Notes under the pieces: model-generated | What the model saw: only the letters and a program-made list of their open reading frames with translations | Told to the model about the DNA's origin: nothing | The model's database searches: none | NCBI RefSeq assembly: GCF_006740685.1 | Contig: NZ_CP035425.1 | Coordinates: forward strand, 1,031,687-1,095,686 | Length of the DNA stretch: 64,000 nucleotides | Direction: 5' to 3' | Source: Candidatus Nitrosopumilus sp. SW | Lineage (GTDB): Archaea > Thermoproteota > Nitrososphaeria > Nitrososphaerales > Nitrosopumilaceae | Program-made: the position numbers and the translations under genes | Shown here: piece after piece, positions 13,462-48,572 of the stretch | Layout of the letters: each line of letters opens with the position of its first letter | Numbering within the stretch: position 1 is the stretch's first letter

Positions 13462-15897
13462 TTGAAGAAAATACACACTTTACCATTTCTATTGTTACTA
13501 TTAACGACTCTAACTAGCATGCCCATCAATCCTGCATTTGCAGCAGGTGACTTGGACAATGATGGCGTTGATGACGCTGTTGATGCCTGTCCTAATTTAC
13601 GTGAAGATTATGAAGGTACTATAGATGGTTGTCCGTCAAACTTTGTCCCATGGTATGATGAAGACTATGATGGAATAGAAGACCATATTGATCAATGTCC
13701 AAATCTTAGAGAACATTACAATTTATTCCAGGATGAAGATGGTTGTCCCGACATTAATCCTAAGGGTGGACCAGGTGGATTACCTGACTCTGATGGTGAT
13801 GGATTTGTTGACACTGTTGATAATTGTCCAACACAACCTGAAACCTTTAACGGTGTTTTAGATACTGATGGCTGTCCTGATGATTATGGTTCTGGTGACC
13901 GTGATAGAGATGGGGTACCTGATGCAGTTGATCAATGTCCACTAAGTCCTGAAACTTATAACAAATTCAAAGACTTGGATGGTTGTCCTGATTCTGTTAC
14001 TGATCTTGCTTTTGTTGACACTGATAATGATGGAATACAAGACTCAATAGACTTGTGTCCAACAGAACCTGAAGTGTATAATGATTACAGAGATACTGAT
14101 GGCTGTCCTGATATTGCACTAGATTCTGATTTTGTTGATACTGATGGTGATGGTATTGCAAATCAATTTGATATTTGTCCTACTGATCCTGAAACTTTCA
14201 ATCGCTTTGCTGATTATGATGGTTGTCCGGACTCTATTCCTTCATTTGCTGGTTCTCTAAATGATGCAGATGGTGATAGAATAATGGATGTTGATGATGC
14301 ATGTCCGCTAGAACCTGAAAGATACAACAGCTTCCAAGATGAAGATGGTTGTCCAGACATTCCTCCTTACTCAAGTGATGTTGATTCAGATGGTGATGGA
14401 ATTCCAAATAGTATTGATCAATGTCCAAATGTAAAAGAAACTTACAATAAATTCAAAGACTTGGATGGTTGTCCTGACTTTGTTGCAGATAACAAAGGAA
14501 CAACTGATTCAGATGGTGATGGAATTATAGACAACAATGATTTGTGCCCAAACCAACCTGAAATATTTAATGGCTTCCAAGATAGAGACGGTTGTCCTGA
14601 TCTTTCTGGATTTGGAGATCGTGATTTAGATGGAGTTCTTGACGCATATGATGAATGTCCAACTGCAAAAGAAACTTACAATAAATTCCAGGATCTTGAC
14701 GGTTGTCCTGATTCACTTTCTGGATTTTCAGTATTTGACTTTGATGGTGACGGAATTGCTGATTTGAATGATCAATGTCCTCTAGAACCTGAAACCGTAA
14801 ATGGATATCATGATCAAGATGGCTGTCCTGATATAGCTGTTATTGATTCAGATGGTGACGGAATTAGAGATTCATTAGATCAATGTCCTTCGACTGCTGA
14901 AACTTGGAACAGATACAATGATGAAGATGGCTGTCCTGATAGTGCTTCTGATCTTGATTCAGACTTTGATGGTATTCCTGATATTGTAGATGAATGTCCA
15001 TTAGACAGAGAACGATACAATGGCTTCCAAGATGAAGATGGCTGTCCTGACTATCCTGATTTCCTTACTGACATAGACTCTGACTTTGATGGATTGATTG
15101 ATTCATTAGATAAATGTCCACTTATTCCAGAAACTTACAATAAATTCCAAGATGAAGATGGTTGTCCTGATTCTGTAGCTGATAACAAAGGCTCTCCGGA
15201 TTCAGACAATGACGGAATTAATGATTACAATGATCATTGTCCAAATCAACCAGAAACCTATAATGGAATTCTTGATCTTGACGGTTGTCCAGATGACTAT
15301 ATCTTAAGTCATGACAGAGACCAAGATGGTATTCCTGATGCAATTGATGCCTGTCCAACTGCAAAAGAGACTTGGAATAAATTCCAAGATGATGACGGTT
15401 GTCCTGATACAATATCCGAATCATTTGTAGTTGATTCAGACAATGACGGTATTCCTGATATTGATGATGACTGTCCGCTAGTTGCAGAAAATTACAACGG
15501 CTTCCAAGATGATGACGGTTGCCCAGATATCGATGACACTCAACCTGACTCAGATGGTGATGGTGTACCAGATGTAATGGATATGTGTCCAACCCAAAAC
15601 GAAACCTGGAATAGGTATGTAGACTATGACGGTTGTCCAGATGTTCTTCCACTTGGAAATATGGTAATTGACAATGATGAAGATGGAATAAATGACGATG
15701 TTGATTTATGTCCAAATCTTAAAGAATCTTGGAACAAGTACAATGATCATGACGGTTGCCCAGATATTGCTCCTGAACAATCAAGATACAAACATGATGC
15801 TGATTTAGATGACATTATCAATGAGAATGATATGTGTCCACTAGAACCAGAGGACTATGACGGTGACAGAGACACTGACGGATGTCCTGACAATTAG
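13462..15897 (+). CDS. Secreted thrombospondin type 3 repeat protein, 20 repeats
   Basis: 811 residues: a signal peptide of ~27 residues (MKKIHTLPFLLLLLTTL...AFAA), then only TSP3-type repeats to the end. Each unit has a DxDxDGxxDxxDxCP calcium loop and a second half (E.YN.F.D.DGCPD) with its own cysteine, so two cysteines per repeat, probably disulfide-bonded outside the cell. I count 20 units; related units recur every six (3-9-15, 4-10-16, 5-11-17, 6-12-18), showing a six-repeat block. The start codon is TTG. The protein is extremely acidic and should form a calcium-dependent rod on the cell surface. Function (adhesion, surface layer, calcium storage) is not shown by the sequence. Confidence 0.88.
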   Translation: MKKIHTLPFLLLLLTTLTSMPINPAFAAGDLDNDGVDDAVDACPNLREDYEGTIDGCPSNFVPWYDEDYDGIEDHIDQCPNLREHYNLFQDEDGCPDINPKGGPGGLPDSDGDGFVDTVDNCPTQPETFNGVLDTDGCPDDYGSGDRDRDGVPDAVDQCPLSPETYNKFKDLDGCPDSVTDLAFVDTDNDGIQDSIDLCPTEPEVYNDYRDTDGCPDIALDSDFVDTDGDGIANQFDICPTDPETFNRFADYDGCPDSIPSFAGSLNDADGDRIMDVDDACPLEPERYNSFQDEDGCPDIPPYSSDVDSDGDGIPNSIDQCPNVKETYNKFKDLDGCPDFVADNKGTTDSDGDGIIDNNDLCPNQPEIFNGFQDRDGCPDLSGFGDRDLDGVLDAYDECPTAKETYNKFQDLDGCPDSLSGFSVFDFDGDGIADLNDQCPLEPETVNGYHDQDGCPDIAVIDSDGDGIRDSLDQCPSTAETWNRYNDEDGCPDSASDLDSDFDGIPDIVDECPLDRERYNGFQDEDGCPDYPDFLTDIDSDFDGLIDSLDKCPLIPETYNKFQDEDGCPDSVADNKGSPDSDNDGINDYNDHCPNQPETYNGILDLDGCPDDYILSHDRDQDGIPDAIDACPTAKETWNKFQDDDGCPDTISESFVVDSDNDGIPDIDDDCPLVAENYNGFQDDDGCPDIDDTQPDSDGDGVPDVMDMCPTQNETWNRYVDYDGCPDVLPLGNMVIDNDEDGINDDVDLCPNLKESWNKYNDHDGCPDIAPEQSRYKHDADLDDIINENDMCPLEPEDYDGDRDTDGCPDN

Positions 15898-18800
15898 GTG
15901 TTCGTAAAATGAAGCAACAATATCTTTTAGGATTTTTACTTTTACTCACCCTAACTATTGGAATGGCACCAAGCAGTGTCTTTGCAAATGAGGCAATTGA
16001 TTCTGATGGTGATGGTGTTCCAAATGCAATTGATGAATGTCCTCATCTCTTAGAAGACTATGATCCTCAATACGGTAACAACATTGACGGTTGTCCTGCA
16101 GACTTTGTTCCTTGGTATGATGCTGATTATGACGGTGTTCAAGACCATGTTGATAATTGTCCTACTGTAAAAGAAACTTACAATAGATTCCAAGATGAAG
16201 ACGGTTGTCCTGACTTGTCTCCTTACACTGATGCCGGTATTGCTGACTCTGATGGAGATGGCTTTCCTGATTATCTAGATTTGTGTCCAACACAACCTGA
16301 AACATTTAACGGAATTGATGACACTGATGGCTGTCCTGATGATGATCATTCTGTAATTGATAGTGATCAAGATGGAATCTCTGATGGCAAAGATTCCTGT
16401 CCACTAGATCCTGAAACTTACAATCAATTCCAAGACCATGACGGTTGTCCTGACTCTGTTGATGACGCATTATCTGGATACACATTCCCTGACACTGACG
16501 GTGATGGAATTGAAGACAGATGGGATTCATGCATTTTTGAGCCAGAAAACTATAACAATAATTTAGATTGGGACGGTTGTCCAGATATTCCTGGAGTAAC
16601 AAATCCTGAAGCTCCTGATACTGATTTTGATGGAATTCCTGATGACAAAGATGCATGTCCTCTAGACCGTGAAAATTATAACAAATTTGAAGACTCTGAC
16701 GGTTGTCCAGATGTAGTTCAACATATGATATTTGGCGATTATGATGGTGATGGAATCCCTGATCAAGATGATTTATGTCCATACAGTCCTGAAACTTATA
16801 ACAAATTCCAAGATGAAGACGGTTGTCCTGATTTAGTAGCTGATAACAAATTATCTGTAGATACTGATGGTGATGGAATTATTGACAATATAGACCTGTG
16901 TCCGACACAACCTGAAACTTACAATGGTATTCTAGACACTGACGGTTGTCCTGACAGTTCACTTTACAGATACGATGCAGACATGGATGGAATTTTAGAT
17001 AATGATGATGCATGTCCACTAGAACCTGAAACTTACAACTTGTATCTAGACACTGACGGTTGTCCTGACTCTGTTGATGACGCATTATCTGGATATACAT
17101 TCCCTGACACTGATGGTGATGGAATTGAAGACAGATGGGATTCATGTATCTATGAGCCTGAAAACTTTAACGGATTCTTAGATGATGACGGTTGTCCTGA
17201 AACTTTGGGCACCACTGCTGGTGATATGATTGATTCTGATTATGACGGTCTTGCAGACCACTTGGACCAATGTCCAACTATTGCTGAAAGATATAATAAA
17301 TTCCAAGATGAAGACGGTTGTCCTGATAGTATTATTCACCAAACAATAGGTGACTCTGATGGCGATGGTATCTATGATGATGTTGACCAATGTCCAACTG
17401 CAAAAGAGACCTACAACAAATACATGGACACTGATGGTTGTCCTGATTTCATTGCAGATAATAAGCTCTCAGCAGATACTGATGGTGATGGAATTCTTGA
17501 TTATCTAGACTTGTGTCCAACACAGCCTGAAACCTACAATGGATTCCAAGACTCTGACGGTTGTCCTGACAGTTCTGTGTCTACCCTTGATTCAGACATG
17601 GATGGAATTTTAGATATTAATGATGCATGTCCACTAGAACCTGAAACTTACAACAGATACCTAGACTCTGATGGTTGTCCTGACTCTGTTGATAGTACAG
17701 CCTCAACTTACACATTCCCTGACACTGACGGTGATGGAATTGAAGACAGATGGGATGCATGTATCTATGAACCCGAAAACTATAACAATAATTTAGATTG
17801 GGACGGTTGTCCTGATACTCTAGGTGCAGAATCTACTACTCCTGTTTATGCTGACTCTGATGGCGATGGATATCCTGATGCTGTAGATTCCTGTCCAACA
17901 GAATCTGAAACTTGGAACAAATACCTAGACTCTGACGGTTGTCCAGACATTGCTCCAGAACAACAAAGATTTGTCCATGATGATGATCTAGATGACATCA
18001 TTAACGACGAAGACTTGTGTCCACTTGATCCTGAAGATTATGACGGTGATAGAGACACTGACGGTTGTCCTGATCCATAGGTCTAATTGAATTTCTAATA
18101 TTTCAAAAGAACCTATTTAACGTGAGACTTAATAAATACTTGATAATAGCGGAATCAGGAAACTATGAAACAATATCTTTTAGGATTTTTACTTTTACTC
18201 ACCCTAACTATTGGAATGGCACCAAGCAGTGTCTTTGCAAATGAGACAATTGATTCAGATGGTGATGGTGTTCCAAATGCCGTCGATTTTTGTCCTCATC
18301 TCTTAGAAGACTATGATCCTCAATACGGTAACAACATTGACGGTTGTCCTGCAGACTTTGTTCCTTGGTATGATGCTGATTATGACGGTATACAAGATCA
18401 CCTTGACAACTGTCCTACTGTAAAAGAAAATTACAATAAATTCCAAGATGAAGACGGTTGTCCTGACTTGTCTCCTGACGGTGATGGTGGAATTGTGGAC
18501 TCTGATGGTGACGGATATCCTGATTATCTAGACTTGTGCCCATCACAACCTGAAACATTTAACGGAATTGATGATACTGACGGTTGTCCTGACGATGAAC
18601 ACAATTTACTAGACCGTGATCAAGATGGCATCTCTGATAGCAAGGATTCTTGTCCACTAGAACCTGAAACTTATAACTTGTATCTGGACACTGACGGTTG
18701 TCCTGACTCTGTTGATTCCACAGCTTCTATCTATGAATTCCCAGATACTGATGGTGATGGAATTGACGATAGATGGGATCAATGTCTAAACGAGCCTGAA

Positions 18801-20325
18801 AATTACAACGGATTCCAAGACCAAGATGGTTGTATTGATATTCCAGGTGCTGATGCAAATGGAATTATTGATTCAGATTATGATTCAATTCCTGATGACA
18901 AAGATGCTTGTCCATTAGAACGTGAAAACTATAACAAATTCCAAGATGAAGATGGATGTCCTGATGTTTTACAATTACAAATCAGTGGTGATGCTGATGG
19001 TGACGGTTTACTAAATGCCTTTGATGATTGCCCATATGTTCCTGAAAACTATAACAAATTCCAAGACACTGACGGTTGTCCTGATTTAATTGGTGATAAT
19101 AGATATTCTTATGACTCTGATGGTGATGGAATTATTGATAATTTAGATTGGTGTCCAAATCAGCCTGAAACCTACAATGGATTCCAAGACTCTGACGGTT
19201 GTCCTGACAGTTCTGTATCTACTCTTGATACTGATAGAGATGGAATTCCAAATGTTTCAGACTCTTGTCCACTAGATCCTGAAACTTACAACTTGTATCA
19301 AGACACTGACGGTTGTCCTGATTCAGTTGATGGTGCACTATCTGGATATACATTCCCTGACTCTGATGGTGATGGAATTGATGATAGATGGGATGCTTGT
19401 GTTGATGAACCAGAAAACTTTAACGGATTCTTAGATGATGACGGTTGTCCTGACACACCAGGAGTTTCCAAATCAGCTTTGCTTGATACTGATTATGACA
19501 ACATTCCTGACATACATGATTTATGTCCAACAATTGCAGAAAATTACAACAAGTTCCAAGATTATGACGGTTGTCCTGACACAATAGAACATGGTTCATT
19601 TGGCGATTCAGACGGTGATGGAATAATTGACAATGTAGACCAATGTCCTAAAAGTAAAGAAACTTACAATAGATTCCAAGACACTGACGGTTGTCCAGAT
19701 TCACTTTTTGATGGCTATTCTACTTATGATTCAGATGGTGATGGCATAGTTGATAACCTCGACTTGTGTCCAACACAGCCTGAAACATACAACGGATTCC
19801 AAGACACTGACGGTTGTCCTGATAGTTCTGTCTCTACACTTGATTCAGACCTGGATGGAATCATAGACATTTCTGATGCATGTCCACTAGAACCTGAAAC
19901 TTACAACTATTATCAAGATGAAGATGGTTGCCCTGATTCTACAGGTACTGTAACATCTTCTTACTCTTTCCCAGATGCTGACGGTGATGGAATTGATGAC
20001 AGATGGGATTCATGTCTAGATGAGCAAGAGAACTTTAATGGATACTTGGATTGGGATGGATGCCCAGACGAATTGGCTGCAGCATCAACAACTCCAACAA
20101 GATTTGACTCTGATGGTGACGGATTCTATGATGGAATTGATTCCTGTCCATCAAAACCTGAAACCTGGAACAAATACAATGATCATGACGGCTGTCCAGA
20201 CATTGCTCCAGAACAACAAAGATTTGTCCATGATGATGATCTAGATAGCATCATTAATGATGAAGACTTGTGTCCACTTGATCCTGAAGATTTCGATGGT
20301 GACAGAGACACTGACGGTTGTCCTG
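13558..20325 (+). repeat. Tandem TSP3 (calcium-binding) repeat region in three genes
   Basis: 54 units in all (20+17+17), each about 35-47 residues (105-140 bp), recognisable in DNA by recurring GACGGTTGTCCTGA-like and GATGGTGATGGAAT-like stretches. The region is coding throughout, apart from the two short gaps and signal peptides between genes. Confidence 0.9.
15909..18080 (+). CDS. Secreted thrombospondin type 3 repeat protein, 17 repeats (paralog 2)
   Basis: 723 residues with signal peptide MKQQYLLGFLLLLTLTIG...VFA and 17 TSP3 units. Related units recur every five: repeats 5, 10 and 15 carry a distinctive DRWD(S/A)C (I/F) variant lacking the CP proline, repeats 8 and 13 follow a VADNK/IADNK linker, and 3, 8 and 13 share DLCPTQPET. 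It starts 11 nt after the first paralog, with AGGTG at the preceding stop as ribosome binding site, so the two form an operon. The last unit (DDLDDIIND...DRDTDGCPD) is nearly the same in all three proteins and may be a conserved C-terminal cap. Confidence 0.88.
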   Translation: MKQQYLLGFLLLLTLTIGMAPSSVFANEAIDSDGDGVPNAIDECPHLLEDYDPQYGNNIDGCPADFVPWYDADYDGVQDHVDNCPTVKETYNRFQDEDGCPDLSPYTDAGIADSDGDGFPDYLDLCPTQPETFNGIDDTDGCPDDDHSVIDSDQDGISDGKDSCPLDPETYNQFQDHDGCPDSVDDALSGYTFPDTDGDGIEDRWDSCIFEPENYNNNLDWDGCPDIPGVTNPEAPDTDFDGIPDDKDACPLDRENYNKFEDSDGCPDVVQHMIFGDYDGDGIPDQDDLCPYSPETYNKFQDEDGCPDLVADNKLSVDTDGDGIIDNIDLCPTQPETYNGILDTDGCPDSSLYRYDADMDGILDNDDACPLEPETYNLYLDTDGCPDSVDDALSGYTFPDTDGDGIEDRWDSCIYEPENFNGFLDDDGCPETLGTTAGDMIDSDYDGLADHLDQCPTIAERYNKFQDEDGCPDSIIHQTIGDSDGDGIYDDVDQCPTAKETYNKYMDTDGCPDFIADNKLSADTDGDGILDYLDLCPTQPETYNGFQDSDGCPDSSVSTLDSDMDGILDINDACPLEPETYNRYLDSDGCPDSVDSTASTYTFPDTDGDGIEDRWDACIYEPENYNNNLDWDGCPDTLGAESTTPVYADSDGDGYPDAVDSCPTESETWNKYLDSDGCPDIAPEQQRFVHDDDLDDIINDEDLCPLDPEDYDGDRDTDGCPDP

Positions 20326-20333
20326 ATAACTAA
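18165..20333 (+). CDS. Secreted thrombospondin type 3 repeat protein, 17 repeats (paralog 3)
   Basis: 722 residues, same plan as paralog 2: signal peptide, 17 TSP3 units, five-repeat register. The DNA for signal peptide and first repeat is almost identical to paralog 2 (75 bases from 18171 match 15918-15992 exactly), whereas later repeats have diverged, for example DRWDQCLNEPE in repeat 5 and a lost proline (GCID) there. The 84-bp gap before it contains a TTAATAAATA promoter-like element at about 18129 and AGGA before the ATG, so it may also be transcribed alone. Confidence 0.88.
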   Translation: MKQYLLGFLLLLTLTIGMAPSSVFANETIDSDGDGVPNAVDFCPHLLEDYDPQYGNNIDGCPADFVPWYDADYDGIQDHLDNCPTVKENYNKFQDEDGCPDLSPDGDGGIVDSDGDGYPDYLDLCPSQPETFNGIDDTDGCPDDEHNLLDRDQDGISDSKDSCPLEPETYNLYLDTDGCPDSVDSTASIYEFPDTDGDGIDDRWDQCLNEPENYNGFQDQDGCIDIPGADANGIIDSDYDSIPDDKDACPLERENYNKFQDEDGCPDVLQLQISGDADGDGLLNAFDDCPYVPENYNKFQDTDGCPDLIGDNRYSYDSDGDGIIDNLDWCPNQPETYNGFQDSDGCPDSSVSTLDTDRDGIPNVSDSCPLDPETYNLYQDTDGCPDSVDGALSGYTFPDSDGDGIDDRWDACVDEPENFNGFLDDDGCPDTPGVSKSALLDTDYDNIPDIHDLCPTIAENYNKFQDYDGCPDTIEHGSFGDSDGDGIIDNVDQCPKSKETYNRFQDTDGCPDSLFDGYSTYDSDGDGIVDNLDLCPTQPETYNGFQDTDGCPDSSVSTLDSDLDGIIDISDACPLEPETYNYYQDEDGCPDSTGTVTSSYSFPDADGDGIDDRWDSCLDEQENFNGYLDWDGCPDELAAASTTPTRFDSDGDGFYDGIDSCPSKPETWNKYNDHDGCPDIAPEQQRFVHDDDLDSIINDEDLCPLDPEDFDGDRDTDGCPDN

Positions 20334-47603: not shown

Positions 47604-48572
47604 ATGGACCTTTACAAATCAAAGTATTCTGATAAGAAAAAATCTGGAGGAAGACGAAGAGACGATGCACCTCGTTCTTTTAGAAATTCCAGGGATGATC
47701 GATTTTCTAGAGATAGAAAAAGAGAATCTGCAACAGTGACTTGCGCTGATTGCGGTGATGAATGTGAAGTTCCATTTGTCCCAAGAACTGACAGACCTGT
47801 ATATTGTAGCGATTGTTTTAGAAAAAACAAACCAGAGGATTCAGATGATAGAGGTTCAAGATATTCCAGAGACGACAGAAGAGAATCTCGCAGAGATGAT
47901 AGAGGTTCAAGATATTCCAGAGATGATAGACGTGAATCTGCAACAGTGACTTGCGCTGATTGCGGTGATGAATGTGAAGTTCCATTTGTCCCAAGAAGTA
48001 ACAAACCTGTTTACTGTAATGATTGCTTTAGACAAAACAAACCACAAGACTCTGATGATAGATATTCCAGAGACGACAGAAGAGAATCTCGCAGAGATGA
48101 TAGAGGTTCAAGATATTCCAGAGACGACAGAAGAGAATCTCGCAGAGATGATAGAGGTTCAAGATATTCTCGAGATGACAGAAGAGAATCAAGTAGGGAT
48201 AAACCAAGAAAACTAAAAAATGATAAATTTTCAAAAAAGCGAGAGAGCTTTTTCAGTAATGGTTCAGACAAGTTCTATGCAACAATAAAAGAAAAATTGT
48301 TTGAAATTTTGGGAGGCAAAGTTTGCTCTAGTTGTGGATTTAAAGATGAAAGAGCTTTAGGATTCAGCCCAATTGCTGATGATTCTACTTTTGATGAAAT
48401 TGGACGTGGCGGTGCTGCATCCTCCTGGGGAAAATATATCTCAGAACCTGATCTTGCAAGAGAGGAACTCAAGGTATTGTGCTTGAATTGCAATGAAATT
48501 AGACAACCTATCGCAAAGCCCAAAGAAAAATCAAGACCTAAACAGAAGAAAAGTAAATTCTTCCCACGATGA
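47604..48572 (+). CDS. SR-like protein with two zinc ribbons and an HNH-like C-terminal domain
   Basis: 322 residues. Two near-identical zinc ribbons (CADCGDEC...CSDC/CNDC, about 45-75 and 115-145) are separated and followed by Arg/Ser/Asp-rich repeats in which RYSRDDRRES occurs five times. The C-terminal ~90 residues hold another CxxC...CxxC pair (CSSCGFKDERALGFSP...LCLNCNEIRQ) in an HNH-endonuclease-like arrangement. At DNA level 60-odd bases of the two ribbons match exactly, so the duplication is recent or kept uniform. The composition resembles eukaryotic SR/RGG proteins and suggests RNA binding (inference). Confidence 0.78.
   Translation: MDLYKSKYSDKKKSGGRRRDDAPRSFRNSRDDRFSRDRKRESATVTCADCGDECEVPFVPRTDRPVYCSDCFRKNKPEDSDDRGSRYSRDDRRESRRDDRGSRYSRDDRRESATVTCADCGDECEVPFVPRSNKPVYCNDCFRQNKPQDSDDRYSRDDRRESRRDDRGSRYSRDDRRESRRDDRGSRYSRDDRRESSRDKPRKLKNDKFSKKRESFFSNGSDKFYATIKEKLFEILGGKVCSSCGFKDERALGFSPIADDSTFDEIGRGGAASSWGKYISEPDLAREELKVLCLNCNEIRQPIAKPKEKSRPKQKKSKFFPR

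Follow-up and report, generated by a model that had tools for sequence, protein, structure and literature searches.

In 126 of 131 distinct complete arrays of thrombospondin type 3 (TSP3) repeats from the Nitrosopumilaceae, the number of units between a head unit and a tail unit is an exact multiple of six (6k, k=1-4) or of five (5k, k=1-5). Together with two recent and exact one-block duplications seen in the DNA of relatives, this supports the proposal, made in a first-pass annotation of the locus in Candidatus Nitrosopumilus sp. SW, that such arrays grow by blocks of several units and not by single repeats; the block structure on which that proposal depends is present. The window, which is the whole 64,000-nucleotide stretch of DNA analyzed from that genome, contains one six-type gene and two five-type genes side by side.

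Three adjoining TSP3 genes and their repeat register

The region from 13462 to 20333 of the window holds three adjoining plus-strand open reading frames, the TSP3 genes A, B, and C (Table 1). Cutting the proteins at their cysteine pairs gives 20, 17, and 17 units, 54 in total, with 108 cysteines (40+34+34), two per unit, so that the reading frames and the unit parse both agree with the first-pass count of three tandem genes and 54 two-cysteine units. The cysteine spacing is C-x15-C in 51 of the 54 units, the exceptions being the three head units. Units are 34-44 residues long and carry an extra DxDG ahead of the second cysteine, and they are accompanied by no partner domain. The three proteins contain 57 DxDxD[GSND] motifs, and acidic residues number 221 against 37 basic in A, 197 against 22 in B, and 190 against 24 in C.

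Table 1. Features of the TSP3 gene cluster, in window coordinates
Feature	Coordinates	Strand	Basis
Gene A, 811-aa predicted secreted TSP3 protein, 20 units	13462..15897	+	Open reading frame, units, Pfam TSP_3 E=2e-35, period 6, orthologs with equal spacing
A, predicted signal sequence MKKIHTLPFLLLLLTTLTSMPINPAFA, probable cleavage after AFA	13462..13542	+	Sequence reading
A, head unit (unit 1), outside blocks, shorter Cys-Cys spacing	13546..13653	+	Unit parse
A, block 1 (units 2-7)	13654..14379	+	Units; A1 blocks form one clade across species
A, block 2 (units 8-13)	14380..15072	+	Units, block tree
A, block 3 (units 14-19)	15073..15792	+	Units, block tree
A, tail unit HDADLDDIINEND..., mean identity 0.77 to B/C tail	15793..15894	+	Units, unit-string alignment
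Gene B, 723-aa predicted secreted TSP3 protein, 17 units	15909..18080	+	Open reading frame, units, Pfam, period 5
B, block 1 (units 2-6)	16116..16733	+	Units
B, block 2 (units 7-11), 615 nt	16734..17348	+	Units, DNA self-comparison
B, block 3 (units 12-16)	17349..17975	+	Units
B, unit 5, first DRWD unit, within conversion zone; more copies at units 10 and 15	16488..16613	+	Units, codon identity
B, tail unit, homogenized with C tail	17976..18077	+	Units, self-comparison, codon identity
B-C gap, 84 nt, A+T-rich TATA-like stretch	18081..18164	+	Sequence reading
Gene C, 722-aa predicted secreted TSP3 protein, 17 units	18165..20333	+	Open reading frame, units, period 5
C, blocks 1-3 (18369-18986, 18987-19601, 19602-20228); DRWD at units 5, 10, 15	18369..20228	+	Units

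The first unit (head) and the last (tail, HD.DLD.IIN) are unlike all other units and are common to A, B, and C; because both fall outside the blocks, the blocks begin at unit 2. Protein A consists of the head, three blocks of six units, and the tail; B and C each consist of the head, three blocks of five, and the tail, with an exact DRWD at units 5, 10, and 15 in both. Read by eye, all three N-termini resemble a Sec-type hydrophobic signal ending in AFA or VFA. Each protein ends at its tail unit (...DGCPDN/P), and neither a hydrophobic segment nor a membrane or sorting anchor was found there. Gene C matches B at 93% DNA identity over approximately the first 300 nt, and the TATA-like stretch between the two might serve C as a separate promoter; a sigma-70 scan, which applies a bacterial consensus to an archaeal host, gave matches at chance level. 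Elsewhere in the window, at 47720-48190, lies a tandem 210-nt duplication of a CxxC zinc-finger-like segment, with Arg/Asp/Ser-rich stretches between.

Membership of A, B, and C in the TSP3 class is clear from profile scores. Pfam model TSP_3 (PF02412) scores them at 120, 119, and 100 bits against a cut-off of 25 (E-values 1e-29 to 1e-35), and profile matches among PDB structures are to OmpA TSP3 and COMP. The best NCBIfam match is MtsC (NF047638), with E-values down to 3e-54, yet the scores of 184.5, 137.6, and 125.9 bits lie below its cut-off of 350.

Register was measured after trimming the head and tail; periods of 2 to 8 were allowed, and unit order was shuffled 5000 times. The best period is six in A (in-register identity 0.636 vs 0.584, P=0.0016) and five in both B (0.713 vs 0.596, P=0.0006) and C (0.699 vs 0.588, P=0.0006), so the registers of six and five that the first-pass annotation had read, with DRWD variants at every fifth unit of B and C, stand against shuffled orders. 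DNA self-comparison makes the 615-nt spacing of B and C visible directly; Tandem Repeats Finder did not detect the arrays, because they are too diverged. The six-unit register of A comes mostly from block positions 1-3, and its positions 4-6, compared between blocks across relatives, reach identities of 0.59-0.61, barely higher than the 0.584 found out of register in the window's A. In B and C, the five-unit register shows strongly at positions 2-4 and weakly at positions 1 and 5.

Block number and distribution in the Nitrosopumilaceae

Arrays were parsed in about 100 Nitrosopumilaceae loci, a start, head, tail, and stop being required, and removal of near-copies left the 131 distinct complete arrays. 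Between head and tail, the 73 five-type arrays have 5, 10, 15, 20, or 25 units and the 53 six-type arrays 6, 12, 18, or 24. Among the five misfits, one has a unit that falls under the detection threshold (L021), three have a unit shortened by about 17-25 residues (L074, L075, L104), and one starts inside a broken gene (L089); none of the five has cleanly gained or lost one to four units. Because the modal number of three blocks is mostly common by descent, the weight of the rule rests on the 17 of 126 arrays with other block numbers, not all of which are independent. Further cases on long contigs agree: L043, within a chromosome of 1.67 Mb, has five-block and two-block genes; L139 and L140, on a single contig of 2.05 Mb, have four-block genes; and L141, on a contig of 180 kb, has a five-block gene. 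The linker at a given block position hardly varies in length within the family, even at identities as low as about 60%.

Two arrays preserve the duplication itself. In L084 (24 units), the gene repeats itself 696 nt further on, a shift of exactly six units, with 686 nt nearly identical, a 641-nt exact run, and the duplication junction around positions 3 and 4. In L051 (20 units), the offset is 615 nt, exactly five units, and the repeat extends over 932 nt with an exact run of 834 nt. Each is one whole-block duplication. At another locus (L097:7997-15703), the region is broken into about eight TSP3 fragments, some with runs of N, by either decay or assembly error.

Conservation extends to the gene order (Taw1, TSP3 genes, Dus), which is nearly restricted to the Nitrosopumilaceae. 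Taw1 upstream and/or Dus downstream is found at nearly all loci, as far as the contigs extend, and in a class-wide sample 77 of the 78 genomes matching B belong to this family. Among named relatives in the contig collection, a Nitrosopumilus bin comes nearest, with 89% identity across B. The genes flanking the window's locus, identified from sequence by eye, are apparent housekeeping genes (YchF-like GTPase, Kae1, Bud32, Taw1, Dus) and gave no clue to the function of the TSP3 proteins. TSP_3 matches occur in 134 of 250 family genomes and in 84 of 131 of good quality, counting any TSP3 protein and not this locus alone; since about one-third of the good-quality genomes have no match, the proteins are dispensable. 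In the small-genome relatives L029, L032-L035, and L037, the same neighbors enclose a single 16-unit array without the HD tail and with no obvious block period in its spacing, possibly an ancestral or a reduced state.

In the whole 1.5-Mb genome, a TSP_3 scan at E<=0.001 matched at the window cluster only. A weaker search returned a single TSP3-like unit outside the window (G000:C1:159827-159928, minus strand) whose frame contains a stop codon; it may be a remnant. Many relatives (among them L122-L125, L127, L128, and L133) have a second type of TSP3 protein, about 500-540 residues long, in which TSP3 loops of the classic form accompany a conserved C-terminal domain; it was not detected in the window's genome. 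In two further proteins (L099:4433-6406 and L100:2868-4853), a signal sequence is followed by the same trio of TSP3 units, with equal linkers (44 and 42; DRMD/DRFD), and a fused partner, in one case a Kazal plus metallo-beta-lactamase-fold protein and in the other a HAD-like protein. Within the family sample, full-length matches to these fusions occur only in genus g33, and the joining of the trio to predicted secreted enzymes hints at a docking role.

Conversion, selection, and the kinship of A with B and C

Where the amino acid is the same, the fraction of identical codons at B position 4, which holds DRWD, is 0.836 within the gene and 0.554 between species; at position 5 the values are 0.619 and 0.597. 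In 19 of 21 species, position 4 is the most alike. When B is compared with C from the same genome, codon identity is 0.83-0.85 for units 2-3 and 17 and about 0.61-0.65 in the middle, against about 0.58-0.65 between species. The raised synonymous codon identity in the DRWD zone indicates conversion, beyond protein-level constraint alone. Gene conversion homogenizes the DRWD unit across the blocks of B, and B with C at their ends. Gene A is stable, with no comparable conversion zone between its blocks and only position 2 mildly raised. All three genes are under purifying selection (dN/dS 0.06-0.12). One other three-gene locus (L103) presents an extreme of conversion: its B/C blocks are almost wholly homogenized at positions 2-4, and its B1 equals C1 over the tested units.

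The first-pass annotation also held that the founder block differed between the arrays, which is partly supported: A has an extra unit in each block, but the founders are related, and the first blocks of A, B, and C may form one clade. When A is aligned with B/C as strings of units, scored on mean identity, one unit of each A block (6, 12, and 19) stays unpaired, an arrangement from which the founder blocks of A and B/C read as related, with one unit added in A. In a block tree from all shared positions, the A blocks split from the B/C blocks with support of 99. Across 10 species, the first, second, and third A blocks fall into one clade apiece, and therefore are older than the radiation of the family.

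A common three-block ancestor of A and B/C was considered and rejected: in trees from positions 1-3, holding all second blocks together (p-AU 0.0015) or all third blocks together (p-AU 0.0009) is excluded. At the low resolution of these same positions, holding all first blocks together is allowed (p-AU 0.76), and A as one clade is allowed and not required (0.51); within-gene conversion could imitate this pattern of values. The first block and the ends are probably common by descent, with internal blocks multiplied separately in A and in B/C. Because conversion can blur the signal, our confidence in separate multiplication is only moderate.

Candidate function and competing explanations

The account we favor, and consider likely, is that these genes encode secreted calcium-binding TSP3 filaments of a matrix, with lengths set by in-register whole-block recombination, by conversion, and by purifying selection. 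The conserved locus would produce three secreted, very acidic, disulfide-rich chains, which in seawater would bind calcium and most likely become stiff, extended filaments, part of a matrix around the cell and loosely held at or outside the S-layer. Each chain would have a constant head and tail flanking a block present k times, the block being of six units in A and of five in B and C. Chains would change in length by unequal homologous recombination between in-register blocks, and therefore by gain or loss of whole blocks only; conversion would limit divergence among the DRWD units within a B gene and between the ends of B and C, with A mostly held at three blocks. The 50-100 calcium ions and long rigid rods suggested in the first-pass annotation, like the surface location, rest on homology. 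AlphaFold models of full-length B (26 alignment rows, pLDDT 56) and of one B block (62 rows, pLDDT 60) have pTM of about 0.2 and are uninformative.

A different reading makes the block a structural or functional period, a superhelical turn or a docking period with one DRWD contact, such that recombination yields changes of every size and selection retains only those of whole periods. The near-invariant linkers, the strong purifying selection, and the reappearance of DRWD and its context as a trio module in the g33 fusions speak for it, but in-register homologous recombination by itself already predicts whole-block change, raised synonymous codon identity in the DRWD zone points to conversion as well, and positions 4-6 of A share so little between blocks that no repeated contact is visible in that sequence. 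We judge it unlikely. A bolder extension, which we hold as speculation and still more doubtful, is that the block is a functional super-unit with one DRWD docking site per B/C block, that the filaments form an anchoring scaffold outside the S-layer, and that the trio holds the g33 enzymes on the surface; a change in k would then alter the number of sites by whole steps.

The registers might instead be relics of a single founding event, old duplications common to relatives with nothing ongoing. The antiquity of the A blocks, each a clade that predates the family radiation, fits this; block gain, loss, and conversion, however, continue in B/C and in some A genes, and the L084 and L051 duplications contradict it unless they are assembly errors, so we give it very little credence. 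Assembly error as a general explanation, with near-identical repeats collapsed or expanded when short reads were assembled, likewise seems highly improbable. Many relatives are metagenome bins, where repeat collapse could imitate whole-block change, and several variants lie on short metagenome contigs (4.8 kb for L084), but complete genomes show the same pattern, non-modal genes occur in the L043 chromosome and in the long contigs with L139/L140 and L141, and blocks in most variants have a mean nucleotide identity of 0.65-0.85, low enough for unique assembly.

Proteins of this kind have parallels. The TSP3 segment of a bacterial OmpA-family protein (PDB 5WTL; Dai et al. 2017; profile E=9e-9) likewise has DxDxDGxxDxxDxCP...GC with a cysteine pair per unit, but it has fewer and shorter units and an OmpA domain, whereas the proteins here have 17-20 units and no partner domain; a Pfam scan found the OmpA peptidoglycan-binding domain absent from A, B, and C. 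Myxobacterial MtsC (NF047638), named for cell-cell cohesion, also carries TSP3 arrays, but the scores here fall below its curated cut-off and the window's proteins have no C-terminal anchor. For evolutionary pattern alone, the proteins and organisms being unrelated, the title of a study of spider major ampullate silk genes (PMC9779670) describes homogenization in clustered genes for repetitive structural proteins.

The first-pass remark that the role of such proteins had not been described was overstated. In the available text of Bayer et al. 2019 (PMC6593220), two TSP3-repeat (TT3R) proteins of Nitrosopumilus are reported as 15-40-fold more abundant in H2O2-exposed cultures, in which small aggregates were seen; they are proposed as putative extracellular-matrix components resembling myxobacterial thrombospondin-like proteins, and the authors note that the rise may be renewal of damaged protein. 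Those proteins share genus and repeat class with A, B, and C, and that text treats abundance only, without repeat register, block rule, conversion, or locus. Another article, as excerpted (PMC7265257), cites work in which adhesion of marine ammonia-oxidizing archaea is tied to an extracellular, thrombospondin-like structure bearing five calcium-binding domains. The excerpts at hand from literature on glycoproteins and biofilms of these archaea do not name A, B, or C. The proteins are of a known kind; within a limited search, the whole-block rule and the localized conversion appear to be new to the literature.

Ammonia-oxidizing archaea are among the most numerous microbes of the ocean, and their outer matrix is poorly known; the locus supplies a defined and conserved candidate for part of it. 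The findings raise the question of whether the block is a structural period. The whole-block rule, the one-block duplications, and the mapped conversion zone together make a clear prokaryotic case of a surface protein evolving through higher-order repeats, and the persistence of the rule across relatives shows a route by which long surface proteins evolve.
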